Shown: positions 17,691 to 53,289 of the stretch, in pieces
How the letters are laid out: every line of letters begins with the position of its first letter
How positions within the stretch are numbered: position 1 is the stretch's first letter
Source of the DNA: a virus
Reading direction: 5' to 3' (one strand)
IMG/VR virus record: IMGVR_UViG_3300033148_002172
Coordinates: 1 to 57,908 of that record
Length of the DNA: 57,908 nt
Translations under genes and position numbers: made by a program
The notes under the pieces: generated by a model
Databases searched by the model: none
Told to the model about the DNA's origin: nothing
What the model saw: the letters and a program-made list of their open reading frames with translations, nothing else

Positions 17691-17818
17691 AAGAGCTACT
17701 GGCCAGTACCGTCCACAGTTTACCGTCCACAGTTCTAAGAGGAGCTAACTCCCGTATGCTGTAAACATCGCCCGATGCGGCGTCGTCCAAGGGCTTACCC
17801 TTGACTCTCTACTTCAGG
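17675..17818. repeat. 19-bp perfect inverted repeat, 106 bp apart
   Basis: CCTGAAGTAGAGAGTCAAG at 17675-17693 is exactly the reverse complement of 17800-17818. Between the arms are no plausible genes, only a 12-bp direct repeat CCGTCCACAGTT present twice (about 17709-17732). The element overlaps the leader of the 90-aa gene and could form a long-range RNA stem or be a mobile or recombination remnant. Confidence 0.75.
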
Positions 17819-17870: not shown

Positions 17871-18107
17871 TTAATTATGTTTAGCCTTCGCCAAATGATA
17901 TAGTAACTTCTCTGTGGCGAGCAATTGCTCGCTACGCGCTGGCCCGCGCTCGGCGGCGATGAGGTCTTGAAGCTCCCTAACCATGTCCAGGGCTTCATCA
18001 ATCTCTTCTTTCTTCTTCCATACCTTATCCCAAATCCTTAGGTTATCGGTGTGAGCGGCTTCGAAGCTGACCATTTTAACCCCATCTATTATTTGTACAG
18101 AACCCAT
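17871..18107 (-). CDS. hypothetical protein, 78 aa
   Basis: Unrecognised. Starts MGSVQIIDGVKMVSFEAAHT followed by charged helices (KVWKKKEEIDEALDMVRELQ; ARSEQLLATEKLLYHLAKAK), so probably a helical coiled-coil protein. A strong TAAAGGAGG site precedes the ATG, in a leader shared with the 90-aa gene. Confidence 0.7.
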   Translation of the reverse strand: MGSVQIIDGVKMVSFEAAHTDNLRIWDKVWKKKEEIDEALDMVRELQDLIAAERGPARSEQLLATEKLLYHLAKAKHN

Positions 18108-18150
18108 AGGTTCCTCCTTTACTGGCTTTATTGCCTGCAGTAGGGAATAA
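18108..18150 (-). promoter_or_regulatory. leader hairpin plus strong RBS, copy 2
   Basis: CAGGCAATAAAGCCAG stem-loop followed by TAAAGGAGG and ATGGGT, matching the leader at 17650-17690 with only a few changes. Confidence 0.55.
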
Positions 18151-18647
18151 GTAGGGGACGGGCAGAGTAGGTTACTAGCCTACCCGTCCCCTAATTAAAG
18201 GTTTGCGACATCGCATGTGTCGTCATTACCCCGCTAGCGCGCTTAATGGTAGTCCCTACGATTTTCGTTCGTAGGGAGCCACGCGCTAGCGCTTGACTCG
18301 ACACCCGGCCCGTTCGTTATACGTCGGTTAGCCCGTTCACGGTGCTCCACTTGTCAAGCGGCACACTCGCTATCGGCTATTATTGCCTATCGCTATATAG
18401 GGGACCGTCGCCCCGTTTTAAGTCGACCTCGCATACTCCGCTTCCGCTGGTTACTATATTGTGTCAGTAAAGCCCTGTACTACACTTCACAAGTGAAGGA
18501 CTGACACACACACTAGAGGGCATGATAGGTCATGTGACGGAGATAAGGCGTCAACCTACCTGTACGTTCTAGCGTACCGCTACGAATAGCATCATATACA
18601 AGATATCAAAGAATAGTTGAGAATAAAACAGAATAAGGAGGAAAAGT
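18151..18647. other. non-coding stretch with several hairpins
   Basis: I find no convincing gene here. Dyads include an 11-bp stem TAGGGGACGGG/CCCGTCCCCTA (18152-18162 with 18183-18193), a nested structure around 18230-18300 where GCTAGCGCG pairs with CGCGCTAGC and encloses the hairpin TCCCTACGA/TCGTAGGGA, and GTGTCAGT/ACTGACAC around 18461-18507 enclosing CTTCACAAGTGAAG. They could be transcript leaders, terminators or protein-binding sites. Confidence 0.6.
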
Positions 18648-18671
18648 AGCCGGGAGCATAGGCTCCCGGCT
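18648..18671 (-). terminator. strong stem-loop, probable terminator of the 18677-18965 gene
   Basis: A perfect 10-bp stem AGCCGGGAGC/GCTCCCGGCT with a four-base loop. On the minus strand it is followed by ACTTTTCC and lies 5 bases after the stop codon of the reconstructed leftward gene, as expected of an intrinsic terminator, although the T-tract is short. Confidence 0.6.
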
Positions 18672-18676
18672 ATGGA

Positions 18677-18965
18677 CTACTTGCGCGCCTTTCGGCGCAG
18701 CGTAACCGCGACAAACGGTCGTTTGTGGCCGTACGATGACACGCGGTGCGTAGGATGTTCATTCCTAACACAAGCTGTGTTAGGGATGTTCACTTGCCAC
18801 TGTGTTAGGGATGTTCACTTGCCAGTCACCGATGGCAATGCTATCGTGTCGCAAGTCCTGTTTAGGAACCTGATTAACAATGCGTCGAACTGACGCCCCG
18901 CTTTGACGGGGAACGTTATATACGCGCCCCCTAACGCCCGTCTGGGCGTTCCATGAGTTACCCAT
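18677..18965 (-). CDS. small basic leftward protein interrupted by a 25-bp tandem duplication
   Basis: From the ATG at 18963-18965, which has AAAGGAGG seven bases upstream, translation begins MGNSWNAQTGVRGRVYNVPR and as written stops at 18780 after 61 aa. The stop falls in a perfect tandem 25-bp duplication (18775-18799 and 18800-18824). Removing one copy makes the frame run on to a TAG at 18677-18679, giving 87 aa with a very basic end (FVAVTLRRKARK), exactly divisible by three, and stopping just before the terminator stem. Function unknown. It would be the first gene of the leftward block. Confidence 0.5.
18775..18824. repeat. perfect tandem 25-bp duplication
   Basis: Two adjacent identical 25-base copies, each containing TGTGTTAGGGATGTTCACTT. 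A partly inverted copy lies just before (CCTAACACA/TGTGTTAGG, about 18764-18785). The duplication shifts the frame of the leftward gene at this place. Confidence 0.9.
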
Positions 18966-19166
18966 AGGGCAACCTCCTTTATTCGAGATAGGAAAGAACG
19001 ACCCACAAGGGGCGACCGGAGCAAAGCACCGATGCCAAGGTATATTGCGAGCATCGTGCCAACATTTCCAACGGTCGAAAATCCCCTTGCAATGCCGATA
19101 GTTGAAATAGGACCACAGTCAAAATACAGGTTTCAGGCTGAAATCGCGACATTCATGCCGTGGTTA

Positions 19167-19317
19167 GGCTAATTGAAAACGAGGGACATAGAGCCTATTG
19201 CAGAGGCGTCTAGCGTTTCCAAACCACGACATTAATGTCGTGGTAGCAGGTCCGATGTAGAGCCGTCTAGCGTTCAGTACCACGGCATTCAATGCCGTCT
19301 AGCGTTTTCAATTAGCC
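19167..19317. repeat. 15-bp inverted repeat enclosing palindromes
   Basis: GGCTAATTGAAAACG (19167-19181) is the exact reverse complement of 19303-19317. Between them are a perfect 20-bp palindrome CCACGACATTAATGTCGTGG (19224-19243), the dyad CGGCATTCAATGCCG near 19283-19297, and three copies of GTCTAGCGTT (19208, 19265, 19297). Confidence 0.85.
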
Positions 19318-19344
19318 GCCGGACGCACCTTAGCGTAAACACTG

Positions 19345-19434
19345 TTCACTTAATGAACCTTATTCACTTAGCTAAACTTGTTCACTTAACGAACCTTGTT
19401 TACTTAGTGAACCTTATTCACTTAGTGAATGGGA
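19345..19434. repeat. five tandem 18-bp repeats with internal dyad
   Basis: Consecutive units TTCACTTAATGAACCTTA, TTCACTTAGCTAAACTTG, TTCACTTAACGAACCTTG, TTTACTTAGTGAACCTTA and TTCACTTAGTGAATGGGA. Most contain the dyad TTCACTTAGTGAA or a close variant, so each is likely a protein-binding site. Confidence 0.85.
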
Positions 19435-19501
19435 TTCACGTACCCTTCTCGCGCTAAAGGTACTCGCGATTGCAATAATCGTGCCAGCTTTCTCCTCGGG
19501 A

Positions 19502-19576
19502 GACCGTGACAGCGGAGACCGGGACAGTGGGGACCGTGCCAGTGTGGACCGTGCCAGTGTGGACCGTGCCAGTAAA
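19502..19576. repeat. five tandem 15-bp iteron-like repeats
   Basis: Units GACCGTGACAGCGGA, GACCGGGACAGTGGG, GACCGTGCCAGTGTG (twice) and GACCGTGCCAGTAAA lie end to end with no gaps. They are degenerate at defined positions, like binding-site iterons. Confidence 0.85.
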
Positions 19577-19715
19577 CACTGCAAGGGTTGACATGCCAAT
19601 AGGGTGGGTGGTGTCTCCCATTAGGGGTGTTGTGTCGTCGTTAGTCCGGGGAGGTGCTTTAAACCAAAAAGCGTTAGCTAAGGATTTTGGGGGGGGTGTG
19701 CTAAGAGCACCTAAT

Positions 19716-19742
19716 CTTAGCTAACTTAGCTAACTTAGCTAG
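19716..19742. repeat. three tandem 9-bp repeats CTTAGCTAA
   Basis: CTTAGCTAA, CTTAGCTAA, CTTAGCTAG directly in tandem. Related TTAGCTAAG and CTTAGCT words occur close by (about 19674 and 19756). Confidence 0.8.
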
Positions 19743-19771
19743 TGGGGGCTAAGTGCTTAGCTCTGAGGATT

Positions 19772-20050
19772 TGTCACACCCCGACACCGAATGTGTGACA
19801 GAATGTGTGACAGAAATAATCACCTTTCCACCTACCTTTATCTCTTAGCTACTATCTTTGTCACATGTCACAGTAAAAAAAACTCCTCCACAGAAGTATG
19901 TGTGTTTATACACACACACTTTATATATATAAACTTCTCCCTAAAACCCTGTGACACTGTGACAAATTAATAAGGAATCGAGGTTGAAGCGGCGTAATTC
20001 TTGTCACACCTCGTCTATTTTGTCACAAATAGGGGTTTTTTTCTGTGACA
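19772..20050. promoter_or_regulatory. cluster of ten TGTGACA/TGTCACA boxes
   Basis: The same 7-mer, read on either strand, starts at 19772, 19794, 19806, 19859, 19866, 19950, 19958, 20002, 20021 and 20044. Several are paired back to back or spaced 8 to 12 bases apart. They lie directly upstream of the first rightward promoter and are probably operator or initiator binding sites. Confidence 0.8.
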
Positions 20051-20117
20051 AAGGGGTGACCTTTTTTAAATCCTTAAGGGACCCGGATAGGGTGGGTTGT
20101 ATTTTTTTGGGGGGGGT

Positions 20118-20146
20118 TTGCCTCGTCTAGGGAACGGTGCTATAGT
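20118..20146 (+). promoter_or_regulatory. sigma70-like promoter for the first rightward gene (leaderless)
   Basis: TTGCCT (20118-20123) and TATAGT (20141-20146) are 17 bases apart. The predicted transcription start would coincide with the ATG at 20153, which has no ribosome binding site, so the mRNA is probably leaderless. Confidence 0.6.
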
Positions 20147-20152
20147 GCCCCC

Positions 20153-22197: not shown

Positions 22198-22423
22198 ATT
22201 ACAGGTAGATTTGGGCTATGTACCAGCATTGGTCTATATATCAACACCCCACGGGGACTCTACTGTCACGGTATGGTGCGTACATCAGCAAGAGTTTGAA
22301 GAACTTAAGAAAGCAGCAGTGAGCAACACCCCATTCGAGGGCAAGAGCTTTGCTTTGCCTAATGATGCCGCTAGTAAGATAGTAATGGTCGCCATGAAAC
22401 GTCCAGAGCATGTAGTAGCGTAG
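22175..22423 (+). CDS. hypothetical protein, 82 aa
   Basis: Unrecognised small protein (LVYISTPHGDSTVTVWCVHQ; NDAASKIVMVAMKRPEH), likely a compact alpha/beta fold. GAGGAGG precedes the ATG. The stop overlaps the GTG start of TerL, so the two are coupled. Confidence 0.75.
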   Translation: MTTARQRKLQVDLGYVPALVYISTPHGDSTVTVWCVHQQEFEELKKAAVSNTPFEGKSFALPNDAASKIVMVAMKRPEHVVA

Positions 22424-24234
22424 TGGACGATGACCTCCTAAGAAAACTGAGAGACCCAAGGCTAACTGTGCCGGAGTTCGGCTCAGTGGTGGACCAGCGT
22501 ACTGAGGACATAATTAGATATGACGCAGATAGGGTATGTCCCCGTCTGCAACATTCTATATTATCCTTCATGGGAGATACTCCAAGGGACTCAGATGGCA
22601 TGACACAGTGGCTCATAGTTAACGCCAGCAGGCAAACAACCAAGTCTACAACTACAGCTCTAGCTATGGCTAATCTGGCGGAGTATACACCCGGTGCTTT
22701 CGCGGCCATTATTGCAGATAAGAAAGAGAGAGCAGAAGACCTATTCCGCGCTATTGATATATCCTATGAGTATAAACCGGACGAAGTTAAATACCCCACT
22801 ATTGCTAACAGGGAGAGTAGGCAGCTAACTTTTACCCACAAAGGTAAAATCCGTACCTTGGCAGCCAATCAGGAGAACGTAGGTATTGGGAGGGGTGCTT
22901 CCTATTTACACATGTCAGAGGTGCCCTTTTGGAACGACCCAGCAGATGTGTGGTTTAAGATGGGACCAGCCTTTCGTAATAGAAAGAACGCGGTTATAGT
23001 AATGGAGAGCACCCCGGCACCTATGTCGGAGCCAGGGGCAGAGTGGTATAGGGACATGTGTGCGGAGGCCCGCAAGGGCCATGGTAGGCTTAAGTTTTTA
23101 TTTGTACCCTATCATGAGTCTAAGTTAAATGAGAGAAACTGGCATCCATCTTGGAAGCCCGACAGTACAGAGTTTAAGCTACTAGAGAAATATGGACCAC
23201 CAACGGGTATGGAGCCTATATCTAATCCGGGATCTAGCTACTTAACTCTAGAGAATCTAGCCTTTAGGCGAAGGGTAATGGAGGAGGATAAACTTATCCG
23301 CCGATACCCAGAGCTATTCTTCGTATTCTATCCTGTGAACTCTATATCCTGTTGGCAGCAACCCGGCGGGGGAGCTATACCTGTACATGTATTAGAGAAG
23401 CATTTAGAGGCAGACTTGGAGCCATGGGAACCTCTAGATAATATGTACATGGAGTACTCGGAACCCCATCCAGATGGTGTATATGTTATAGGTGTAGACC
23501 CTGCAGGATTTGGCTCAGGCGACCAAGCGAGTTTTCAAGTATTAGAAGTCTGGTCGGATGAATGGGTACAAGTAGCAACCTTTAGTTCCAACGAGCCTAA
23601 CCCTCCAGAGGTAGCACGTTATGTATTAGAGGCGGCAAAGAGGTATAATGACGCAGAGGTAGTAGTAGAGAACAATGGGGTAGGGGCTGGTATTTTATCA
23701 GTATTAGAGCTGGCGTCAGATTACAACGGGGTGGTACTAGTCAACACTCAAGGTGTGGAAAGGAAATACCATCTTAAGAACTTATACTATCATAGGAGAG
23801 GTTCGGTCAGAGCAACCCCAGGAATACCAGCCAGCAAGAGGACTAATGCGGAAGCCATGGCTGCCATGATAGATGCTCTTATGGACAAATTAGTATTGAA
23901 AGACGCCGAGACAGTAGAACAACTAAGATCTTACAGAAGGGATAAGGAATTAGAAGATAGTGAGAAATTTAAACTATTAAAACCAGGCAAGGTAGGGAGA
24001 GGTAGGCGCTCTAAACACCACTGGGATAGAATATCGGCTCTACTATGGGCATGTTTAATTGCCCGAGACCTGCCTGTGAGATATAGGCCAAAGACCCAGA
24101 AGCAGATACTAGAAGATAGAGATAAAATAAACACAATGTTAGATCTCCCCTTTGATGAGTGGACGGGCGAGCAACAACAAGAATATTACAAAGCCCAAGA
24201 GGCTGCTAATAAAAAGAAAAGGAAGGCCAAGTAA
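22423..24234 (+). CDS. terL: terminase large subunit (ATPase and nuclease)
   Basis: 603 aa. The ATPase has a Walker A variant NASRQTTKST (K74, with Thr where Gly-Lys is usual) and Walker B AVIVMEST (about 186-195). The nuclease domain shows VIGVDPAGFGSGD (D359), EVVVENNGVGAG (E416) and HHWDRISALL (D535), the three acidic positions of the RNase H-like terminase nuclease. It pumps DNA into the prohead and cuts it. The start is a GTG overlapping the TAG of the previous gene (TAGTG) and has no strong site, so it is probably translated by coupling. Confidence 0.95.
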   Translation: MDDDLLRKLRDPRLTVPEFGSVVDQRTEDIIRYDADRVCPRLQHSILSFMGDTPRDSDGMTQWLIVNASRQTTKSTTTALAMANLAEYTPGAFAAIIADKKERAEDLFRAIDISYEYKPDEVKYPTIANRESRQLTFTHKGKIRTLAANQENVGIGRGASYLHMSEVPFWNDPADVWFKMGPAFRNRKNAVIVMESTPAPMSEPGAEWYRDMCAEARKGHGRLKFLFVPYHESKLNERNWHPSWKPDSTEFKLLEKYGPPTGMEPISNPGSSYLTLENLAFRRRVMEEDKLIRRYPELFFVFYPVNSISCWQQPGGGAIPVHVLEKHLEADLEPWEPLDNMYMEYSEPHPDGVYVIGVDPAGFGSGDQASFQVLEVWSDEWVQVATFSSNEPNPPEVARYVLEAAKRYNDAEVVVENNGVGAGILSVLELASDYNGVVLVNTQGVERKYHLKNLYYHRRGSVRATPGIPASKRTNAEAMAAMIDALMDKLVLKDAETVEQLRSYRRDKELEDSEKFKLLKPGKVGRGRRSKHHWDRISALLWACLIARDLPVRYRPKTQKQILEDRDKINTMLDLPFDEWTGEQQQEYYKAQEAANKKKRKAK

Positions 24235-24305
24235 AAGGCCTAGTAACTACAGCTAACTTGCTGTATACTTTTCATCGTGTTACCCTGAGCATTACCGGAG
24301 GCTTT

Positions 24306-26150
24306 ATGGCTAATAGTACCAAAGATATCACGCCACAGGATCGTTTTAGATATAAGGTCATAACGAACCATAAAACCAAAATGAGAACCCAGAGGAAGAG
24401 ATGGAAGCGCGCTGCCGACATGTACAGGACGGAGTATTATAGTAGATCCTATTCAGATGGGTCGGATAACGGCGATTATTTATCAGAAGACGAAAGCATA
24501 ACTTTTGAGAACAACTGGCTATTTGCTTTTGCAGACACAATGATAGCGAATATAGTACCACCTAACCCAGAGTGTACTATTATCCATAGGCGCAAAGAAC
24601 TGAAAGAGGCAGCCAAACTTAGAGAACTATTAGTAAATGATTTATTCTACAGAGAAAAAGCCCACAGTAAACTATGGAAACTAGCTACCAGGGCTACCAT
24701 TTTTCCTAGATCTTTTATTAAGTGTGTATGGAATGAGAAAAAGGGAAGGCCAGTGCTTAGGGTGCTAAACCCGGAGTACATCTTTTTCGATGCCATGTCA
24801 GAAGATTGGGAGGACATCAGATACATATGCGAGGTTACTGTACTAACTCGTGGAGAGTTTGAGAAGAGGACAAAGAAGAGAGGGAACAAGCACGGAGTAT
24901 ACCGGAGCGATGCCCTAGAAGACGCTACCTTTGGCCCATACCCAGACTGGTTACTAGATGATGATAGCTCAGACCAAGACGATCATCATATAGTTAGAGA
25001 GGGTTTTGAGTGGATAACCATCTATGAGTATTATGATCTGGTAGCTAAGGAATTCTTTCATTATATGGAAGGAGCACAGAGACCCCTAATTACAGCACAG
25101 CTACCCTACGATAATTTACCTAATCCTTATTATATGCTATCCTTTAATGACAACCTTAAAGATTTAGGTGGCCTATCTGACGCTGAGTTGGTGTTTCCTA
25201 CCATAGAACGCTTGAATGAAATGTCCTCTCTAGAGCTGTGGCACAATAAGTCTAGCATCCCCGTAACAATTATTCACTCGGGATTAGTAGACGACCCAGC
25301 AGAGTTTGAGGATGCCCTAGAGAATGTCGATGGCCCAGGCCAAGTGATTACCATTGCGGCAAAACCTAAAGTAAGTGTTAATGATGTTATGGGAACTACG
25401 CCTATGCCTACACTTCCCATGGAGTGGCAGAGCACTAAAAATGCTCTAAGAGAGCAGATAGAATTTGTATTAGGAATTGCTAGCTACCAGAGGGGAAGTT
25501 TGGGCCAGTCCGACGTAGCTACTGAGCTGGCTCTAGCTGATACAGCTATTAGAACTAGAAATTCCAGGAGACAGAAGGTTATATATGATTGTATAACTTG
25601 GTTAGCTAAAGCTATAATAGCCCTGTACTCACAGTTTTTGCCAGAGGATTCTGAGATACCAGTAAAGCTAGGAAGTGATGGTAAGGTAGGGTCTCTAAGT
25701 AGAAGTACTATGAACCTAGATGATGAGAAAGAAGCAGATTTTGATTATGATTATGAGGCTCGGCCCTTCAATGCTCAGGAAGGTAACTCTGTTGTACAGC
25801 TAAAGACTCTAACAGAATTCATACCTATATTCACACAGAGCCAGAATATAGATCAGAGAAAGTTAGTAGAGAAACTATTAGAGCTACTTCAGATGCCCGG
25901 ACTACTAGTTGAGACTCCTCCAGGTCCTCCAGGTGGTATGCCTCCAGGTGGTATGCCTCCAGGTGGTATGCCTCCAGGAGGAGGTGGGGGGATGCCCGCT
26001 CAAGGAGTTCCTCCAGAGCTAGAAGCCCTAATGCAAGGAGGCCAGGTAAATTCCGGGGATGGCTCACAAGCAATTACGGGGAACATGGAAGGAGGTATGC
26101 AAGTAGGTGGTAAGGTATTAGCGGGTAGCGTACCCCCGGTGAAAGTCTAA
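24306..26150 (+). CDS. portal protein
   Basis: About 614 aa from the ATG at 24306 (MANSTKDITPQDRFRYKVIT), chosen because GGAGG is five bases upstream; a start at 24258 would add 16 residues. The length, the position after TerL, and segments such as YDNLPNPYYMLSFNDNLKDL and PTIERLNEMSSLELWHNKSS match podovirus-type portals that bind head, DNA and tail. The C-terminus carries a collagen-like Pro-Gly tail from a 15-bp tandem repeat. Confidence 0.88.
   Translation: MANSTKDITPQDRFRYKVITNHKTKMRTQRKRWKRAADMYRTEYYSRSYSDGSDNGDYLSEDESITFENNWLFAFADTMIANIVPPNPECTIIHRRKELKEAAKLRELLVNDLFYREKAHSKLWKLATRATIFPRSFIKCVWNEKKGRPVLRVLNPEYIFFDAMSEDWEDIRYICEVTVLTRGEFEKRTKKRGNKHGVYRSDALEDATFGPYPDWLLDDDSSDQDDHHIVREGFEWITIYEYYDLVAKEFFHYMEGAQRPLITAQLPYDNLPNPYYMLSFNDNLKDLGGLSDAELVFPTIERLNEMSSLELWHNKSSIPVTIIHSGLVDDPAEFEDALENVDGPGQVITIAAKPKVSVNDVMGTTPMPTLPMEWQSTKNALREQIEFVLGIASYQRGSLGQSDVATELALADTAIRTRNSRRQKVIYDCITWLAKAIIALYSQFLPEDSEIPVKLGSDGKVGSLSRSTMNLDDEKEADFDYDYEARPFNAQEGNSVVQLKTLTEFIPIFTQSQNIDQRKLVEKLLELLQMPGLLVETPPGPPGGMPPGGMPPGGMPPGGGGGMPAQGVPPELEALMQGGQVNSGDGSQAITGNMEGGMQVGGKVLAGSVPPVKV
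25926..25970 (+). repeat. 15-bp tandem repeats coding for PPGGM
   Basis: CCTCCAGGTGGTATG is repeated three times and partly a fourth, giving the portal a PPGGM repeat. It is in frame, so length variation would not disrupt the gene. Confidence 0.85.
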
Positions 26151-28020: not shown

Positions 28021-28093
28021 GACCGAAGTGGTCTAACTTTTTAACCGCGTAGTCACCATAGGTGGCTTAAACCACCTACTGTGGAGAATCGAA

Positions 28094-29184
28094 ATGGCTT
28101 TTAGCCCAGACGTACTAACTACCGCTCTCCAGGAACTGATGCCCGGTTTCTCGGAGACTTTTACTAAGTTTCACCCCGCTTTTGACGCCATTATCATGAA
28201 GGGCAATAAGCGTCAAGCACAAGGTCCTTACATCCAGTTTGCTCTTGTACCTGATGGTCCCGGTTTCTTAACCCAGATCGTCTCAGGTAACGAGGTAATT
28301 GCTGGGGGACGTAAGCAAAACGCGATTCGAGCTACTGAATTTGCAGCTACGATGATTTATGCTTATGATGTTCCCGGACAGGACTTGCGAGAAGCTAACA
28401 ACAAGATGGATCTTGTTGAGATCTTGTTGAGCTTATCCGACGTTACCCAGAGCGCTCTCTTGCAGAGTTCCACGAGCTTATCGCTCGTCAGCTTGTTATG
28501 GGCGACGTTACCGACGCTAATAACTTCCTTACATGGAACGGCGATGCCCAGTATGACCCTAAGGGTCTAGGTGGACAAGATGGAATTTTCTCCTTCGTAG
28601 CTCCAGCAGCTCAGGCTACTTCGGTATTTGGCGTAGTCAAAAACTCCATTCCAGGATGGCATAACCAATACCAACATATCGCGTCTTTCACGGCTGAAGG
28701 CCGACGACAGATGCGCGCAGCTTACTACGATGCTAGCCAGGAAATGGCTAACACCGAGGGCGATGTTGACTTGATGTTTGCTGACCGTGGAACCTTCGAT
28801 AACTACATTGACGACTTGGATGACCAAGTTCAAATCGTTACTCGTAGTACTCGCGACGGTGATCGCGCTCCAGGTAAGATGCGAGAAGGGATCAAGTTCC
28901 TTAACGCAGTTGTGTACCCAGAGCAGTACATCGTCCCTGCTAACTTTACTACAGCTAACGCCCAAGAGGGTGTATGCTACGGCATCCACTCTAGCACATG
29001 GAAACTGTTCACAATGGGCGGTTCTATGAGTGGTGCGGATGCTACCAAGGGATTCTTCGATAGCCGTGGACCCGTTCGATTACCTACACAAGACATGTGG
29101 CGTTATGAGTACGTCCTTTCCTTGGGTATGTACTGTGACCAACTTCGTTGTAACTTCGCTGTAACAGGCGGCGGTAACCCATAG
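28094..29184 (+). CDS. major capsid protein, frame-interrupted by an 11-bp tandem duplication
   Basis: The first part begins MAFSPDVLTTALQELMPGFS and the second ends RGPVRLPTQDMWRYEYVLSL and beyond, together the size and context of a podovirus major capsid protein. GATCTTGTTGA is duplicated in tandem at 28409-28419 and 28420-28430, which shifts the frame by minus one. Without one copy the sequence reads MDLVELIRRYPERSLAEFHE and then LIARQLVMGDVTDANN without a break, giving 359 aa. As written, the first frame stops at 28570. The codons are unlike those of the neighbours, with Arg mostly CGN rather than AGA/AGG, as expected of a highly expressed protein. GGAG precedes the ATG. Confidence 0.9.
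28409..28430 (+). repeat. 11-bp tandem duplication inside the capsid gene
   Basis: Two adjacent perfect copies of GATCTTGTTGA. Deleting either copy restores one uninterrupted capsid reading frame. Confidence 0.95.
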
Positions 29185-29205: not shown

Positions 29206-29819
29206 ATGTCAACTAAACTTTCATCCGAGCAGCATCAGCATCCGGCGCTTTAGGTGTATCCCAAGGGGGGCCTCAGGCAGAGCTAGGTGCTAAAGTAACA
29301 GCAAACGCCCAAGATGGGTCTACTAGGGTATTATACTATGTAGACGCTGCCGGAGACGCTATTACAGCAAGCGGTCCATTGTACCAACCTGAAGCTACAG
29401 ATGTTGCAGTAACGGTACCGGAGGGGTCGGGCGACCAAACTTGGGCGTACGTTCAGGTTGGTGCTGTAGCTATCACTAGAGGAGAGACCGTAGCCCTAGT
29501 CAATGTCGCACCTGCAATCGTTAGTGGCTTCCCGGTTCCTCGGCACACTAGCTACGGCGGAGTGCTTACGGGTACGGCAGTGGCAGCCAATATGATTGCG
29601 GGCGTTGCTCAGCATAACATTCCCGCATTGCACTTTGGCTGGATCTTAGTCAAGGGTGTGGGCATTGCCAAACTTGATGTCACGGTAGCTGCTGGCGAAG
29701 AACTTGTAGCAGCAGCAGCGGGCGCATTTGCCGGTATTGTTGCTCCTTTATCTGGGGGACTCGGAGTTGCCCTCGTTGCAGGTGTTGCGGCAACTGGAGC
29801 CGTTAAACTAGATATCTAA
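29206..29819 (+). CDS. capsid decoration/head-stabilising protein (putative), with a one-base frameshift
   Basis: A strong AAGGAG site precedes the ATG at 29206, but that frame stops after 15 codons. The neighbouring frame is open from 29217 to 29819. Adding one A in the AAA run (29215-29217) gives MSTKTFIRAASASGALGVSQ and then a continuous protein of 204 aa. The repeated small-residue strands (AAGEELVAAAAGAFAGIVAP) resemble DUF2190-like decoration proteins encoded just after major capsid genes. An intrinsic terminator follows at 29848, and codon use is like that of the capsid gene. Confidence 0.65.
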
Positions 29820-40257: not shown

Positions 40258-41403
40258 ATGGCACCGAACGAAGACCTGGATGAGATGCTGAGGAGCTTAA
40301 ATAAGGGAAAAAGAGAAGAAGAAGAAGAAGAAGAGGGAGATACACAACAACCCACTTACAGTCGGCCACCCACACCTGTTTCTCCTGCACCTCCTCCCTC
40401 CGCAGGTGTGGGTGGTTCGACTTCTACTAAAAGCGATCCAGGCGACCTAGATGCCATGCTTAGGGAGATAAATGCTAGGAATAAGGAACAGGAACAGGAG
40501 AAGAGCGGCAACCTCAATGACTACACGGGTGATACGTTTGAGGACATAGGTATAGAACTCTCCGACAGGGTAAAGAAGGATTTAGGGGAAGGGTATCAGG
40601 TGCCCTATACTAGAGTAGAGAAAGAATACCTATCTAAGTCTCTACCAGAGTTTAGACCTTTCGGGTGGGAGGGTGGAGGACGCGGAGGTCAAGAAGCTAT
40701 TGATATGGTGAAAATGAGGAATGACCTTGCTAAGGCTAGACAGGTAAACTGGATAAGGGATTTTAGAGAGACCAACGACAGAGCGCCTACTCGTGCGGAG
40801 ACTAAATCTGCTTGGGCTAATTTCCACAATGATGCTAACCAGGACATATATAGAGAAGCCCAGAGATCTAGAGGGCAGAGACCCAGCGCCCTGATAGGCA
40901 GCTCAGGTCAGCCCAATAAGATCTTTTGGTATGATTATGATACAGAGGGACATCTGCACGGAGGACTAGGCCCTGTGCGGTTTGGGGGAGAAGATCGGGG
41001 ATGGGTTGAGAAGATGGTGTCTCCGGCACTACTAACTATTGTAGGGGGAGCAGAACACACTATTGTAACAGACGAGGTAGATAAGGACGGTAAGCCTACT
41101 GGTAAGTATGTGATGCCCGTATACAACGAGGCTCACGCTTTAGGGTGGCTAGACTGGGTAGGCAGATTATCTTTAGTAAACACCGCGCTAGTGGCAGGGG
41201 TAGCAGGTGGGGCAGATAGCCCTCTTGATTTCTTAAAACCTTTTGGTTTTATTCCGGGAAACCTAGAGAACTATGTAATACCAGATAGCTGGATAAACCC
41301 CATAGTTAAGGGTTGGGGCACGGATGAACACCTAAAGAGGACAAAACGCGGAGAGGACTATGTGAGCGTTTCCGGGGAGCTTGCCTTAGGTGGTGGCTAT
41401 TAG
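40258..41403 (+). CDS. virion protein, possible N-terminal part of the giant protein, 381 aa
   Basis: The first 70 residues are acidic and Pro-rich (EEEEEEEGDTQQPTYSRPPT). The remainder contains RVEKEYLSKSLPEFRPFGWE and ends with VSVSGELALGGGY. Its stop overlaps the GTG of the giant gene, and the sequence just after the stop in the other frame (AIRAGIWGAEETGAISEESG) continues naturally from GELALGG. So the two may be one protein separated by a one-base shift, or two coupled genes. Confidence 0.65.
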   Translation: MAPNEDLDEMLRSLNKGKREEEEEEEGDTQQPTYSRPPTPVSPAPPPSAGVGGSTSTKSDPGDLDAMLREINARNKEQEQEKSGNLNDYTGDTFEDIGIELSDRVKKDLGEGYQVPYTRVEKEYLSKSLPEFRPFGWEGGGRGGQEAIDMVKMRNDLAKARQVNWIRDFRETNDRAPTRAETKSAWANFHNDANQDIYREAQRSRGQRPSALIGSSGQPNKIFWYDYDTEGHLHGGLGPVRFGGEDRGWVEKMVSPALLTIVGGAEHTIVTDEVDKDGKPTGKYVMPVYNEAHALGWLDWVGRLSLVNTALVAGVAGGADSPLDFLKPFGFIPGNLENYVIPDSWINPIVKGWGTDEHLKRTKRGEDYVSVSGELALGGGY

Positions 41404-44400
41404 AGCCGGTATATGGGGAGCAGAGGAAACAGGAGCTATCAGTGAGGAATCGGGAAACACTCTTAGGGGTATTACAGACTTTGCTGCCGGTATGGGAGTA
41501 GCTCTTAATGATCCCGACATACTCACTTTAGTTACGGGAGGCGTCGGGAAGCTGACAAAGCTAAAGGCACTAGGCAGGGTAGGGGACGCTATGGGGGTCT
41601 CTGCTGCGGCTAAAGCGGCCACCAAAGAAAAAGACTATGTGGCGGCAGCAGACGAGCTTATGACAATAATAAGCACCCCGAAGACTACAGATAAAGAGCT
41701 AATAGCAGCAACTACGGACGCTCTTAGGAAATTCAGTCCCATTGACAGAATAAATATAACTAATGCCGTCAAGCTCAAACTAGCGTCAGATCCAAAACTG
41801 TCTGAAATCTCTAAGCAAGTCTTAGACCAAGCCATTAAGCATGGAGGAAAGCCTATAGAGAACAAGGCCCCCAGTGCGCAGGTACTAAAAGGAGAGACAG
41901 TGGCGCAGCGAGCTACTGAGAAACCGGGTATTAGTAGGGGAGCGGTGGCTAGGGGAGAAACAAAAATGCTAAAAAAGGGGGCAAAGCAAGTAAAAAAACT
42001 TAGAAAGCAGGGAAGACCCCAGGCGGCGAAAACGCTAGCCAAGGCTATGGCTAGCTACAGAACTCTCCAGCTAACTAACCTGTCTAAAGCTACCATCCTA
42101 GCAGACTTAGTGGGACAAAAAAGAGCCATAGGCATACTTAGAGGCATAACTAGAGCGTCTAGAAAGGCACCAACTAAGACCGTACAGCAAATGCAGCTAG
42201 AGCTTGGTCAGGTTACTAAGGCATTACAGGAAGCAAGACAGAAGATGTTTAAGGCTTTCGATGAGACCGCAGTGCCTAGAGGAACAAGAAAAGGGGATAG
42301 GCCCGCTACTAAGCTCTACGCTGAGGCAGAGGCGGCATACGAGTCGGCCATGGCAAAGTGGCACAACCTATCTATGGAACTATCTACGGCCATGTCAGAC
42401 GACGCGGAAAAGTTCTTAGATACCTTAATAGTGCGGGCGAATAAGCAGCTAAAAGCGTCGAACAAAAGATTAGCTGCTAGAACTAAAGCTATAGATGGCC
42501 TGGGGCATAAGTTTAGAGTAAACCCAAAAGAGCACGCAAAGATCGTAAAAGCCGTAGTGGAGAGCGCACCTAAGCAAATGCAGGGGAAGATCGTATCATC
42601 TGCGCTAGCTGTTACACTTAGAGATATGGGCACAGTGTTTGGAAAGCTGTCAGCCTTTGCAGAGGAGACGCGGCCCGGAGGAATTACCGGGTCTTTGAGC
42701 AAGACTATGGATGAGTACGAGAAACTAGCTGACGATACTTGGTTTAGGCCCGATATTGTAGACTTGGCTTCAAAAGCTGCAGGAGACATACGACCCGTAG
42801 GCATAAAGGGTATGAACGCGGAGCAGTTCGGGGAGAAGCTAAAACAAATCAAGACCGCAAGAAAGGCCGCAGAGTTCATAGCTGAAAACGCAGAGGACGA
42901 ATCTTATAGAGAGATAGCTAAAAGGATACTGGATGAGATACCGGACAATGTGCTTATACATGTAGTAGATGAGACTCTCCAGCCTAGCGCCCTAGTAGAG
43001 GCCGGACAAGCATATCCCTCTACGGCACTTAATGAGCTTGCCGGTGGCTGGGCGAGCGGGCTGCACCAAATCCGTGGGGGTAAAAGCGTCTCTGTTCTTA
43101 TTAGGGGTATGAATACGTCGGATGGTAGAACGGCGCAGACAGTCCTGCATGAGCTTCTACATGTAGCAACTCATGCTAAAATAAGGGAGTCGCGTAAGCT
43201 ACCTGGCAGCCCGGAGTATAAGGCAATATTTAAGGAGTTAAATGCCATAAACGATGCAGTAGTTAAAGATCTTAACGCTAAACTAAAAGCCGGAACTAAC
43301 ACAGCCACAGAAGCCTTCTGGGGTAGAGAAATAACAGGAAACCCCGATGAAATAGTAGCATGGGGTTTCACAAACCCGGAATTTAGAGACTTCTTAAAGA
43401 CGATAAAGATGCCGGGAGAGCTAGACCAAAGTGCCTGGAGTAAGTTCGTAGCGAGCATAGCTAGGATTTTGGGGTTAGGTGTACTCACACCAACAAAAGA
43501 AGGAAAGGTAGGACTAGAAGGCAAAACAGCCTTAGATAGTCTACTAAAGGCGGTAGATGACCTGATAGATTTACCGGCACCCGCACCTAAGGCCCCAACT
43601 AAGGCCCCAACTAAGGCCGCAACTAAGGCACCAGCGCGAGCTATACCTATAGAAGCGGCGGTTAAGATGTGGGGTCTACCTACCAGCCGAACGGGATCCC
43701 CCAAACGAGACTATAGAATGGGTATAGAGGATATAGCCTACGAGGATCCCGGTGAGGCATTTAGTGTAGTGGCCAATGTCGTAAGGCGTAGAGGAAGGCC
43801 GGTGCGCGAACCCGGTGCGCCGCACAACAAGTTTTATGGTGGTTACTTCTTCGTCAGGCCAAGAAGCAAAGATCACCTGCGCAGCCTGGGCAGCAGATTC
43901 TCACACATTAATAACCCTACAAATCTCCCTGTTTACACAGTAGGCACTCACTTTCTTGAGGAAATCCCGGAGGTGCCTGTGATGGCTCATATAAAGGAGG
44001 CGTTAACCTTCCTTACTAAAAGACATCCAAAAGGGTTTATACTAGGTAGTAACCTCAAGGATGCGCAAAGGTGGAGATATCCACCCAGTATTACGGTAGT
44101 AAACGGTAAGATAGTAGACGAAGTAGACGAAGTAGGCAAAGTAGCATCCGACAGGCATTTAACCTCTTTAGCCTCGGACGCTAGGGGCGGGGTGCCTGCT
44201 GGTTTTGCATCTGGGTTTGAGGGTACCAGTGACGCCGCGCTCGCCGACGAACTCTATAGAATGGATGGTATACAGGGTACACCGATGATCGATCTAATGT
44301 GGAGGTTGCAACACCGCATAGAAGATCCCGTTCTTGCAGCAGTCTTCTGGAAACTACGAAAAAGCCCCCAATTAGAGCATGGTAAGGGTGCGATGAGTAG

Positions 44401-47400
44401 AGTATATATAGTAACTGATGAGATGCTGGAAGATCTGGGTGGATTGCATGATGATGCCGCTGTCAGGGATATCCGCTGGATGGCCGAAAATTATTCTGGC
44501 GTGGCAGGAGCGGCTACTTATAGAAAACGCTGGACGAAAGCTTCGGATATCCTGGAACAAGTAGTCAACATTCCAAAGACTCTAAAGGAAGACGCCGCAT
44601 GGCTGCAGCGCGAGCTGAGGAACCCTTCAATTTTGGATGTCATTGGGAAGTACGCACACAAAGCGGAAGTTAATATGCTTGAAGAGGCTTTTGATGACTT
44701 GCATGATGTTTATAGCCGAACAATCGGACATCCCGACCTGTTCATCGGTTCGATTGGGCGAAAGGCGTTTTATGAGAACGCATTTGAATCCCTTCTGGAA
44801 AAGATTGGAGATTTTAAACAAAATCCTGGATATAGATCAATCCAAGAGATAAATGAAGGACTAATAACAAAGATAGCAACGGAGCTAAGAACTGACCTGC
44901 TTGACTCCAATCCCCTTTCTAAACTCTTGGGGAGAAAGGGCATATTCCTTAATGCGCTATCTACCGGTCCTGATGGAGAGAAATTACCCGACTGGCTCGC
45001 ATATAAAGGTATGAACGCAGAAACAATAGTTCACGAGATTCTGCACTCAGTTACTATGGAGCAGATAGGAATTGCCGCCAATATGGGGAAGGGGTTAAAA
45101 AAGAGCACCCCTTTAGGTAAAGCATATACAAGGCTTCATAGAGTAGGCTCCGATGTGCTGCGTAATATCCCCCGGCTAGCAGACAAATACATAAAAAGAG
45201 CCGCTAAATTAACCGAAGAGTATGACAAAATAGTGGATGCGTGGCTGAAGGCAGAGGAGAGGGTTTTGTCCGGTCCTGATATGAGTAAGGTCCCCTTCAT
45301 AAAAAGCCAAGACGGACGCGCTGCGCTGCAGGCTAAAGCAGATGCTCTAGCAAAACAGATGGATGATTGGCAAAAGCTGCACCCTCAGAGGCTGGAAGAT
45401 GCCTTTATATTGCAAAAAGAGGCCTTGTGGTTACATGGCATGACGCGCCGCCTCAAAAGCGACGACGGCACTCTGAGTGTACATGAGTTAGTAGCTTACG
45501 GAATGTCCCACAAAAAATTTATGGAGCTTTTAAAAGATGTAAAACTCCCCGGTGCCCAAGGTAAGGTAAGTCTATGGACGGCTTTTGTACACTCTATAGC
45601 ACAAGTTCTAGGTATGCGGAAGGGGGAGTCAGCCCTTTCCGAGCTTCTTAGTGCTGCCGAAGAGGTTATGGACACATCTCTATCTGATGCGCTGCTACAG
45701 GCGGGACCGGATATAGCGGGGAAATACATTAGAGGAGAGCTAAATCTAAGTCAGACGTTAAAGATGACCCACGGAGGCGGGGGAGGCAGAGGAGGTATAG
45801 GAGACGCTGCACGAGGTATGGGTGAGGAGGTATCTAAAGGATTCTCTAGGTCCGAAGAGATCTACTTGGTGAGACAGCTATCCTTAATGAGTGGGTGGAC
45901 CGCCAACAATGACGGCGAATTAATGAAAACGTGGCTGGCCGTACAGAAGGATCTGAAAAATATGTGGGACCCCGCTCAAGCCATCCTGGGTCCTGCTTCT
46001 GAGAAGATACAACAAATCGGGGTAGCTATCTTTTCTCAAATTAAGGTGATGCAAAAAGACCTAGTAAAGAGGGTAGATACGGAGGCTATACGCAAGGGAC
46101 AAGCTGCTATTAAAGAAGCACAAAAGGCTGGAAAGTTTGCAGGATTAGACCCAGAGGAGGCCTTAAAAAAGAAGAGGAAGATTAAGAAAGATGCAGAGGC
46201 GGCAGTATTCTCGGAATACATAGGAGGAGATAAAGATGGAGTAATAAAGTCCATCAACGGAAGCATAATAAATACTATGTTTGCCGGTAAATCCTTGTGG
46301 ACACAAGCTAAGCCTATGCTTAGGGCTGGCCTAAACCGGGGTAAAAAGGGCGCACATAGCATGCCCTTTAAAACCCTGGCTAAAATGTGGTTCGGTGGCC
46401 AGTATAGAAACGAGGGGGAGCTTGGTGCCCTTTATACACAGGTAGAAAACCTTTTACTGTACGGGCACAAAGGCGGCAAGGCGGGCCTGGAGAAAAAGCT
46501 GGAGGTGACATTAACAAAAGAAGAGGCTTTACACATAGGGGCTGCTCTAAAATGGGAGGATTTCTCTGAAGAGGTAAGAAATATAACCAAAAATCAATTT
46601 AATATAGCAGGCATGGGAGAGGTAGAGTCTTCTCCCAAGAAGGCTCAGGCTTTCGCAGCACAGGCCGTAACTCAAATGGCGCTCCTAAACCATGCCTCTA
46701 CTAGAGTAATGAAAGAGTTGGCGGATTTCCCAGAAGACGCAATAATTGCCGCAACTAGGCTAGTGTCAGGACATTCCCAAGACCCCGGCACGGATATAGC
46801 TAAAGCCTTTGATGTGTTAAATAGGCTTAAAATGCCCGCTTTTGTTAGGGAGGCAAAAAACGAGGCAGATACCTATCTTAAAATAGGGCTTGAAATGTAT
46901 GCCGATCCCTCTGGAGATTTCAAAGCATTTATACCTAGACAGTGGATGGATGAGACACTCAAGAGGTTATCCAAGGTAGAGAAGGTTGCGGCAGAGGCAC
47001 ACTTCAGTGCTAAAAGCCCCGGAATTAAAAAAAGCATAGCAACTATTCAAGGTTTTTACAGACTTTGGCAGACCTCTATCCTTACGGGAGCGTTTCTACC
47101 TAGACCCGCTTATTGGACTAACATCTATATAGGGAACGTATCTCAGCTAATAGGAGAGGGAAGGTTTGCAGAGGCGGCAACCATGGCGGCATCTCCAGTC
47201 AGAGACATCATATGGGCGTCCCAAAGGCTGGCATCCCACACACGCCTGGGTAAGTATGTAGATGCCACCCTAGACCATGTAGCTACTAAGTATGGCACAG
47301 ACCACCCACTAGCATCCCTAACTAACGCTTTACTCAATAAAAACATTAGTCAAGTGCTGGATCCCCGGTTGGCGGATGACTCGGCAAGAATAGCAGGAAC

Positions 47401-48793
47401 TGCTTACACCATGGGAGACATACGAAGGATGGCCCTAGATCAGGGGGTGCTTACTTCTTTTGTGTCTAAGTCCGGCTTAGCGAACATGGTACAGAGAGCA
47501 GATATAGGAAAGCGGCAAGCGTTTGTGGATAAAATACAAGCGCCTATGCAGCAGTGGGCAGAGTTTGCAGATGTTCTGGAGCAGAGACAGAGGATTGGGT
47601 TATTCACTGACCTAGTAATCAATAGAGGAGTAGACCCAGAGGAAGCGGGGAGAATAGTAAGGGAAGCCTTATACGACTGGGAATACCCCATGACCCACTA
47701 CGAGGCCAAACTAGCGAAAAACATTTTCATGTTCTACAACTTCCATCGAAGGGCCATGGGCCAGGGTATGAGGATTCTTTTAGACCCCTTCGTTAAAGGG
47801 CAAGATGATAGCTTTAGTGATGTAGTACTGAAGTCTTCGCCTGTACTAGCGACTATGGCGGGCAAAAGGGCCTACAAGACTTCTTATGTGATGGCCATGG
47901 AGGAAATGCTCCACCAGAGCAGGCAAGCCATGATAACGCCTGGAGAGGTACAGAGGGATGGTAGCGTTGAAGGCGGTACAGATCCCGCGTACCCTTGGTG
48001 GAGCTGGAAAGCCACAAATAAGGTGTTCCTACCTAACACACCCATGAGTGCAGATAGAGGGGCTAACTACACAAACAGTGTAGGTAAGGAGAGAAAGGAT
48101 CCCGGCATTACTCATAAGGTGATGACCATGCCGTCTTTCACACCTATAGAAATGATAAACAACTGGGCAGACATTATAGGAGTCCTGGCGGCCTACGGGG
48201 TCTCTTGGCTAGAGGCTTCAGGAAATATCATACGCGGTAAGGGGCTATCTGAGGGGGTAGGATATAGGGATGTAGGAAATACCCTAGCTAAACATGCGAT
48301 AGCCATGGGGGGACCGGTATCTGAGCATGCTCTAGAAGGAGTAGCAGATGAGTATCTAAATGGAGGTAGAGAGTCCTATCAGCAGTCTGGCTACGCTGTG
48401 AAGAGGCGTTCAGACAAACTAATTTTGCAGGGGCTTAATGCTATTCCGGGGCTTTCGGAGATGATGGGTGAGGATTCTGGCCTTATCTGGCGTGACCGGG
48501 AGAAAGAAGGAGATGCTTGGAGAACGGATGCAAAAACAATGGCGCTCCTAAAAGTTATACCAGGACTGGCTAACGAGATTAACACCTACTACGGGCCGTT
48601 GTTAGAGAACAATGCAGAAGGGGGAGAGATCTCAGAGGGGATAAAAGATACCGTCTTAGGCATACTAGGCTTTAAAACGTATAGGTATAGCCCCGAAAAG
48701 GTTAGGAAGGACGACATGTATAAACTAAAGAAAAAGTTTTCTCGTAAGAGGCGAGAGGAGGAACGGGAGAGTGGCACTAAGAAGAAGCGGTAG
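41390..48793 (+). CDS. giant virion-associated protein with two zincin-like metallopeptidase domains, 2467 aa
   Basis: The largest gene here. Residues 587-591 are HELLH followed by HVATHA-like sequence, with a downstream Glu in DEIVAWGF (E654). Residues 1215-1219 are HEILH, with HELVAYG downstream (E1366). The two regions also share an ending pattern (FRDFLKTIKMPG...WSKFVASIARILGL versus FMELLKDVKLPG...WTAFVHSIAQVLGM), so the domain was duplicated. Basic coiled coils fill the N-terminal 500 residues. Around 1888-1920, RLWQTSILTGAFLPRPAYWT and IGNVSQLI match a segment common in very large phage polyvalent proteins. It is probably ejected with the DNA. The start is a GTG after a TAG with a poor site. 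Confidence 0.8.
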   Translation: MVAIRAGIWGAEETGAISEESGNTLRGITDFAAGMGVALNDPDILTLVTGGVGKLTKLKALGRVGDAMGVSAAAKAATKEKDYVAAADELMTIISTPKTTDKELIAATTDALRKFSPIDRINITNAVKLKLASDPKLSEISKQVLDQAIKHGGKPIENKAPSAQVLKGETVAQRATEKPGISRGAVARGETKMLKKGAKQVKKLRKQGRPQAAKTLAKAMASYRTLQLTNLSKATILADLVGQKRAIGILRGITRASRKAPTKTVQQMQLELGQVTKALQEARQKMFKAFDETAVPRGTRKGDRPATKLYAEAEAAYESAMAKWHNLSMELSTAMSDDAEKFLDTLIVRANKQLKASNKRLAARTKAIDGLGHKFRVNPKEHAKIVKAVVESAPKQMQGKIVSSALAVTLRDMGTVFGKLSAFAEETRPGGITGSLSKTMDEYEKLADDTWFRPDIVDLASKAAGDIRPVGIKGMNAEQFGEKLKQIKTARKAAEFIAENAEDESYREIAKRILDEIPDNVLIHVVDETLQPSALVEAGQAYPSTALNELAGGWASGLHQIRGGKSVSVLIRGMNTSDGRTAQTVLHELLHVATHAKIRESRKLPGSPEYKAIFKELNAINDAVVKDLNAKLKAGTNTATEAFWGREITGNPDEIVAWGFTNPEFRDFLKTIKMPGELDQSAWSKFVASIARILGLGVLTPTKEGKVGLEGKTALDSLLKAVDDLIDLPAPAPKAPTKAPTKAATKAPARAIPIEAAVKMWGLPTSRTGSPKRDYRMGIEDIAYEDPGEAFSVVANVVRRRGRPVREPGAPHNKFYGGYFFVRPRSKDHLRSLGSRFSHINNPTNLPVYTVGTHFLEEIPEVPVMAHIKEALTFLTKRHPKGFILGSNLKDAQRWRYPPSITVVNGKIVDEVDEVGKVASDRHLTSLASDARGGVPAGFASGFEGTSDAALADELYRMDGIQGTPMIDLMWRLQHRIEDPVLAAVFWKLRKSPQLEHGKGAMSRVYIVTDEMLEDLGGLHDDAAVRDIRWMAENYSGVAGAATYRKRWTKASDILEQVVNIPKTLKEDAAWLQRELRNPSILDVIGKYAHKAEVNMLEEAFDDLHDVYSRTIGHPDLFIGSIGRKAFYENAFESLLEKIGDFKQNPGYRSIQEINEGLITKIATELRTDLLDSNPLSKLLGRKGIFLNALSTGPDGEKLPDWLAYKGMNAETIVHEILHSVTMEQIGIAANMGKGLKKSTPLGKAYTRLHRVGSDVLRNIPRLADKYIKRAAKLTEEYDKIVDAWLKAEERVLSGPDMSKVPFIKSQDGRAALQAKADALAKQMDDWQKLHPQRLEDAFILQKEALWLHGMTRRLKSDDGTLSVHELVAYGMSHKKFMELLKDVKLPGAQGKVSLWTAFVHSIAQVLGMRKGESALSELLSAAEEVMDTSLSDALLQAGPDIAGKYIRGELNLSQTLKMTHGGGGGRGGIGDAARGMGEEVSKGFSRSEEIYLVRQLSLMSGWTANNDGELMKTWLAVQKDLKNMWDPAQAILGPASEKIQQIGVAIFSQIKVMQKDLVKRVDTEAIRKGQAAIKEAQKAGKFAGLDPEEALKKKRKIKKDAEAAVFSEYIGGDKDGVIKSINGSIINTMFAGKSLWTQAKPMLRAGLNRGKKGAHSMPFKTLAKMWFGGQYRNEGELGALYTQVENLLLYGHKGGKAGLEKKLEVTLTKEEALHIGAALKWEDFSEEVRNITKNQFNIAGMGEVESSPKKAQAFAAQAVTQMALLNHASTRVMKELADFPEDAIIAATRLVSGHSQDPGTDIAKAFDVLNRLKMPAFVREAKNEADTYLKIGLEMYADPSGDFKAFIPRQWMDETLKRLSKVEKVAAEAHFSAKSPGIKKSIATIQGFYRLWQTSILTGAFLPRPAYWTNIYIGNVSQLIGEGRFAEAATMAASPVRDIIWASQRLASHTRLGKYVDATLDHVATKYGTDHPLASLTNALLNKNISQVLDPRLADDSARIAGTAYTMGDIRRMALDQGVLTSFVSKSGLANMVQRADIGKRQAFVDKIQAPMQQWAEFADVLEQRQRIGLFTDLVINRGVDPEEAGRIVREALYDWEYPMTHYEAKLAKNIFMFYNFHRRAMGQGMRILLDPFVKGQDDSFSDVVLKSSPVLATMAGKRAYKTSYVMAMEEMLHQSRQAMITPGEVQRDGSVEGGTDPAYPWWSWKATNKVFLPNTPMSADRGANYTNSVGKERKDPGITHKVMTMPSFTPIEMINNWADIIGVLAAYGVSWLEASGNIIRGKGLSEGVGYRDVGNTLAKHAIAMGGPVSEHALEGVADEYLNGGRESYQQSGYAVKRRSDKLILQGLNAIPGLSEMMGEDSGLIWRDREKEGDAWRTDAKTMALLKVIPGLANEINTYYGPLLENNAEGGEISEGIKDTVLGILGFKTYRYSPEKVRKDDMYKLKKKFSRKRREEERESGTKKKR

Positions 48794-52208: not shown

Positions 52209-53289
52209 ATGGCAGTTAAATGGTCATGGGCGTGGGGTTCGGAAACCGCATTGGTTTTAGAGACTAGCGCAGGGTGGGATTTCTCGTCGACAGCGGCTAG
52301 CAACGTAACATCGTACCCGACGGGTGGACTACCGGCCGGAGTGCCAGAGTTCACTTACGCGGGATCCCCCACGCGATACACGATCAACCTCAAAAGCTCG
52401 TCCACAGCCAGAACACCGCTAAATATTGGCGCCCCGCAGGGGTGGATCTGTGGTCATTTCTACCTAAATTCGGCTGGAGGGTTTTCAAATTATCAGGCTT
52501 TAACCGTGCTAGCGACCAGTAACGGGCGAGCAACCTATGTTGTCGCCAATGGACCGGATACGCTTAAATTGTACTGTCGCCAATGGACCGGATACGCTTA
52601 AATTGTACGTTGATCACGTGTTTAAAGAGCAGACCGTGGCGACGTTTCCACCCCTAACGTGGCATAACATAGCTTTAAAGTACGATATGAGCACCACCAC
52701 TTGGAGCGGGCAGCTCTTTATGAACGGGGTAGCCGTCACGGCTGCCTATACTGATCCGGGGGTAGCCCAAACGTCTAGCTATTTCAGAATTTCGGGGCTT
52801 CTTAATTCCTCTCTGATTACGGGCGGATACTGGGCGGGGCTAGTCCACTATGACGATCTAGCCGACGCTGGCGAACTAAGCCGCCATGTCACAAGGGTAT
52901 CACCCACAGCCGATGTGTCAGAGGTCGGCACATGGAGTCCAGCCAGTGGAGGAACGACCCAAACCACAGAACTGGCCAGCCCCTTGAACACTGCCACAAC
53001 AGTTACGGAAGCGGCACCCCTCAGCGGTGAGAATGTAGTACTCAACGTCAATAATCTGGCCACCCAACTGGGTATCACGCCGAATATATATGGAGTGAGC
53101 GCTCATGCGTATGCCGATGGCGTGGGCATCAGCGTGGAGGCAGCAGTGGGCGAGGGCCAGACCTATACCACAGGGACTAGCGTGGTGGCAGGTTCAGCAA
53201 CGTACGCCACGGCTACAGCTCCCAATAAACCAGGCGGCGGTGCATGGGCAGCCACGGATACAGTGCTGTTGAAATTCGAGGTTAGCTAA
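52209..53289 (+). CDS. tail-fibre protein with LamG/ConA-like domain, frame-interrupted by a 34-bp tandem duplication
   Basis: The ATG at 52209 has GGAGG five bases upstream and the protein opens MAVKWSWAWGSETALVLETS. As written the frame ends at 52601. A perfect 34-bp segment, starting TGTCGCCAATGGACCGGATA, is repeated head to tail at about 52540-52607. Removing one copy joins the halves into one 348-aa protein. The central part (LTWHNIALKYDMSTTTWSGQ, LFMNGVAVT) is typical of LamG/concanavalin-like sugar-binding folds, and the C-terminal part looks like a beta-sandwich. A receptor-binding role is likely. Confidence 0.7.
52540..52607 (+). repeat. 34-bp tandem duplication inside the LamG-like gene
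   Basis: Two adjacent identical 34-base copies, each containing TGTCGCCAATGGACCGGATA and CGCTTAAATTGTAC. 34 is one more than a multiple of three, so the copy breaks the frame. Confidence 0.92.

Follow-up and report, generated by a model that had tools for sequence, protein, structure and literature searches.

An 11-bp tandem duplication splitting the major capsid gene of a metagenome-derived phage contig is probably a local assembly error

The window, which is the whole stretch of 57,908 nucleotides analysed here (IMG/VR virus record IMGVR_UViG_3300033148_002172, positions 1 to 57,908), carries a major capsid gene (28094..29184, + strand) that is divided over two frames because of an exact 11-bp tandem duplication. 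This raises the question of whether the split gene belongs to the phage or was introduced when the contig was assembled. In the original prediction, a non-functional capsid gene was held to be impossible in a viable phage, a statement that takes the contig to be a single viable genome; this need not hold for a contig from a metagenome.

The duplicated stretch, GATCTTGTTGA, is present twice back to back at 28409-28419 and 28420-28430 (28409..28430, + strand) and is out of frame, with no third occurrence in the window and a single copy in the nearest relative. Shuffled sequences gave an expectation of zero GATCTTGTTGA matches, and Tandem Repeats Finder lists the 11-bp repeat at 28409-28430 as well. 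The frame starting with the ATG at 28094 follows the capsid sequence as far as ...NNKMDLVE and then continues off-frame to a stop at 28570, leaving a shortened upstream frame of 158 aa (28094..28570, + strand). From the second copy onward, the frame DLVELIRRYPERSLAEFHELIARQLVMG... holds the remaining capsid coding sequence, ending at the stop at 29184 (28420..29184, + strand). The same division is apparent by tblastn with the capsid protein of the nearest relative, contig L002, as query, its residues 7-118 matching 28091-28426 in frame 2 (96%) and its residues 113-366 matching 28420-29181 in frame 1 (93%). That a duplication of exactly two copies breaks the frame is thus as originally described, and the residues then quoted were correct. 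The duplication falls at residues ~105-109, by position the start of a long helix (residues 104-131), so the truncated product would be without about two thirds of the capsid fold.

What the duplication interrupts is a genuine major capsid gene with the HK97 fold, as the original prediction of its function had it. The PHROG family phrog_9953 ('major head protein') was matched by 60 of the 72 distinct capsid relatives, with a best E-value of 2.5e-13. The window's own two capsid fragments gave no PHROG match above noise, because their frame is broken. An AlphaFold2 model of the 359-aa capsid protein of L064, which is the same contig as L002, was built from 72 sequences and has a mean pLDDT of 74.8. 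Foldseek searches with this model returned phage capsids as all of the top matches, with many HK97-fold capsids among those in the PDB (E-values down to 2.5e-11), as well as capsid matches among the predicted viral proteins of BFVD (E-values to 9e-27). The position of the gene also fits a virion gene block, with the large terminase subunit (22423-24234) and the portal (24258-26150) lying upstream. While family and structural matches are thus shared with the phrog_9953 and HK97-fold capsids, the protein differs from these in a sequence too divergent for matches in Pfam (in which only the window's two fragments were searched), among PDB sequences or among isolate phage records, and in the window its frame is split.

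Relatives of the capsid were drawn from a collection of viral contigs, initially 19 and later 80, and in 80 of 80 the capsid frame is uninterrupted (354-379 aa). L002 shows 92% identity to the window over the C-terminal 245 residues. Its capsid protein is 359 aa in length, in agreement with the ~359 aa originally proposed for the unbroken protein, and it has one copy, ...AACAAGATGGATCTTGTTGAGCTTATCC..., at the site of the duplication. Between the window and L002 there are 2 amino acid differences and 43 synonymous codons to the left of the duplication, and 19 amino acid differences and 85 synonymous codons to its right. The changes on either side are overwhelmingly synonymous, so selection was acting on the capsid until very recently. 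The comparison of L038 with the left portion of the gene carrying the 34-bp duplication was excluded, being out of register. Isolate phages gave no DNA or protein match to the window, no near-identical contig with either one copy or two was found among the viral contigs, and among genome contigs there was no match for the stretch immediately right of the capsid duplication, in collections from which the window's closest records may be missing.

The capsid gene is not the only conserved gene of the window to be broken; three such genes, close together or far apart, each have a single medium-sized indel. The original prediction was correct that its break is real, but missed two further lesions. 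An exact 34-bp tandem duplication of two copies (52541..52608, + strand), also out of frame, disrupts a conserved virion- or tail-region gene of ~350 aa (52209..53289, + strand) that is intact in the relatives L021, L038, L039, and L062. The gene following the capsid (29206..29819, + strand) has a 22-bp deletion relative to L002, identified by DNA alignment and three-frame translation, with the gap at ~29225/29226, and this leaves its ATG at 29206 off-frame relative to the rest of the gene. When the reading frames of all relatives, whose proteins span ~34 kb of the window, served as queries in a tblastn scan, the frame of a well-matched gene switched at two places, in the capsid and at 52541-52608, both coinciding exactly with exact tandem duplications. 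The scan overlooked the 22-bp deletion because the first fragment is short; it was the DNA alignment with L002 that revealed it. The few remaining rows of the scan are antisense frames or cases where the relatives themselves are fragmented, and no other frame breaks, premature stops or single-base frameshifts were found in the ~34 kb comparable with relatives.

Two more exact tandem duplications, each of two copies, are intergenic and lie between the two gene blocks, one of 25 bp (18775..18824, + strand) and one of 14 bp (17707..17734, + strand); no relative could be aligned at either, the region being too divergent. The window therefore has four exact two-copy duplications whose periods are not divisible by three (11, 14, 25, and 34 bp). 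In ~828 kb of related contigs there are only six such repeats, two of them in the related contig L061 and three with a period of 10 in simple sequence. Between oppositely directed gene blocks lies a long intergenic region (18000-20150) that is rich in short repeats (TTCACTTAGTGAAC, GACCGTGCCAGTGTG, and TGTGACA) and may have a role in control or replication. One uninterrupted frame of 2467 aa (41390-48793), situated downstream of the virion genes, is without a PHROG match.

Contig L061, a separate IMG/VR record, possesses exact two-copy duplications of its own, of 11 bp (159-181), 27 bp (1386-1439), and 34 bp (2486-2553), the last of which disrupts its gene as well. To the left of this 34-bp repeat, L061 is 100% identical to the window over 114 bp, while to its right identity to the window drops to ~80%, after which the sequence resembles that of L063. 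The 27-bp repeat likewise sits at a change from near-identity with the window to divergence. In L061, then, both duplications mark a seam between two strains, as would be expected if an overlap shared by the contigs of two strains had been kept twice. Genuine recombination accompanied by duplication could give this pattern too; an artefact is the simpler reading because conserved genes are also frame-broken. At the window's own duplications, including that of 34 bp, no strain switch is clearly visible against the relatives compared. The short contig L041 seemingly has a frameshift of its own in the portal gene (~4725-4973).

The reading best able to accommodate these observations is that the capsid duplication is a local error of assembly in a metagenome-derived phage contig, which we infer to be very probable, strongly though short of proof. 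Assembly would have been uncertain locally, probably on account of co-occurring related strains, and two pieces overlapping by 11 bp may have been joined end to end with the overlap left unmerged, so that the stretch was written twice. The 34-bp duplication may stem from the same kind of join, and the 22-bp deletion from one in which the spacing was wrong in the opposite direction. In the capsid gene an exact two-copy tandem repeat stands at the presumed join and is absent from relatives, and the contig contains several such lesions that ignore reading frame (the 11-bp and 34-bp duplications and the 22-bp deletion). That the latter two break two more conserved genes points strongly to assembly. 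Comparable errors have been described by Chen et al. (2020, Genome Res 30:315; PMC7111523), who report scaffolding joins in which the overlap of the flanks is kept as duplicate sequence as well as local assembly errors lacking read support, and who warn that public databases acquire incorrect protein-coding genes in this way. The window resembles their cases in having a short flank overlap kept twice and incomplete or incorrect protein-coding genes. It differs in that theirs have Ns between the copies, whereas the window contains no N; for this reason the precise joining step is something that we infer, and the reads would likewise be expected to carry one copy.

Assembly error was listed first among three causes in the original prediction, beside a mixed population and a bypassed event, and is the one supported; the three are not equally likely. 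Programmed ribosome bypassing or frameshifting that restores the capsid, with the identical codons in the two copies serving as take-off and landing sites, calls to mind gene 60 of phage T4, where there is also a coding gap between identical codons with a hairpin nearby. In its favour, matched codons come with any tandem copy and a hairpin is present just upstream of the capsid site, but none of the 80 relatives has a gap here, and L002 has the hairpin without any gap. Moreover, there is no conserved signal, and the contig's other breaks could not be rescued in this way, since a duplication of 34 bp and a deletion of 22 bp require quite different rescues, three in all with that of the capsid. 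Bypassing is consequently rejected as scarcely credible. It is also very unlikely that the duplications are real, the contig deriving from a minority variant or from phage genomes that are defective or in decay, with several recent small indels acquired in vivo. Fresh tandem duplications would likewise show exact copies with 0-1 bp of additional match, but decay that breaks three essential or conserved genes and leaves no stops or single-base frameshifts in comparable regions would be odd. Strong purifying selection is still visible in the capsid on both sides of the duplication, and a genome without a capsid cannot propagate alone.

Misassembly has against it the lack of Ns between the copies, the lack of a clear strain switch at the window's own duplications, and the finding that three of these four begin within or next to a hairpin, a feature that is no obvious consequence of assembly. 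Hairpins are found at 28399-28418, 18764-18784, and ~52524-52547, each with its 3′ arm at or adjoining the start of a duplication. In the capsid gene, the inverted repeat CAACAAGAT-GG-ATCTTGTTG (28399..28418, + strand) has the duplicated stretch as its 3′ arm; as it is also present in L002, it was not made by the duplication. The sequence flanking the 11-, 25-, and 34-bp duplications on the left folds unusually well, falling in the lowest 2.2%, 1.3%, and 1.2% of random window positions, respectively, and the 11- and 25-bp duplications begin at a loop whose 9-bp stem is perfectly paired. Such unusually good folding, with 9-bp stems at two sites, would suit hairpin-promoted slippage in which the 3′ arm was copied twice, whether during library PCR, whole-genome amplification or replication. 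This explanation is very unlikely, however, being post hoc and offering no microhomology for re-priming. The left flank of the 14-bp duplication has a fold quantile of 0.80 and no strong hairpin, the three duplications of L061 (fold quantiles 0.77, 0.23, and 0.71) show no hairpin pattern, and there is no comparable fold at the site of the 22-bp deletion. Hairpin-templated duplication was accordingly set aside, having been noticed post hoc in three of the four window duplications and having failed on the three of L061. It is less probable again that the duplications are real, that hairpins in this phage cause their 3′ arms to be duplicated exactly and in tandem, and that a large share of the population has broken capsid genes which intact genomes rescue in co-infected cells. 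Hairpin adjacency is the sole hint of a physical cause and is not relied upon here.

With misassembly as the preferred reading, the contig has at least three gene-breaking errors and its gene list is untrustworthy without the reads. Gene losses, splits or bypassing events that seem to follow from it should likewise be distrusted unless the reads are consulted. In the contigs compared here, exact two-copy, out-of-frame tandem repeats are apparently a cheap flag for such errors. As for the phage itself, it most likely has one copy of the 11-bp stretch and an ordinary full-length HK97-fold capsid protein, and the split capsid gene is to be regarded not as a biological feature but as most likely meaningless for its biology.
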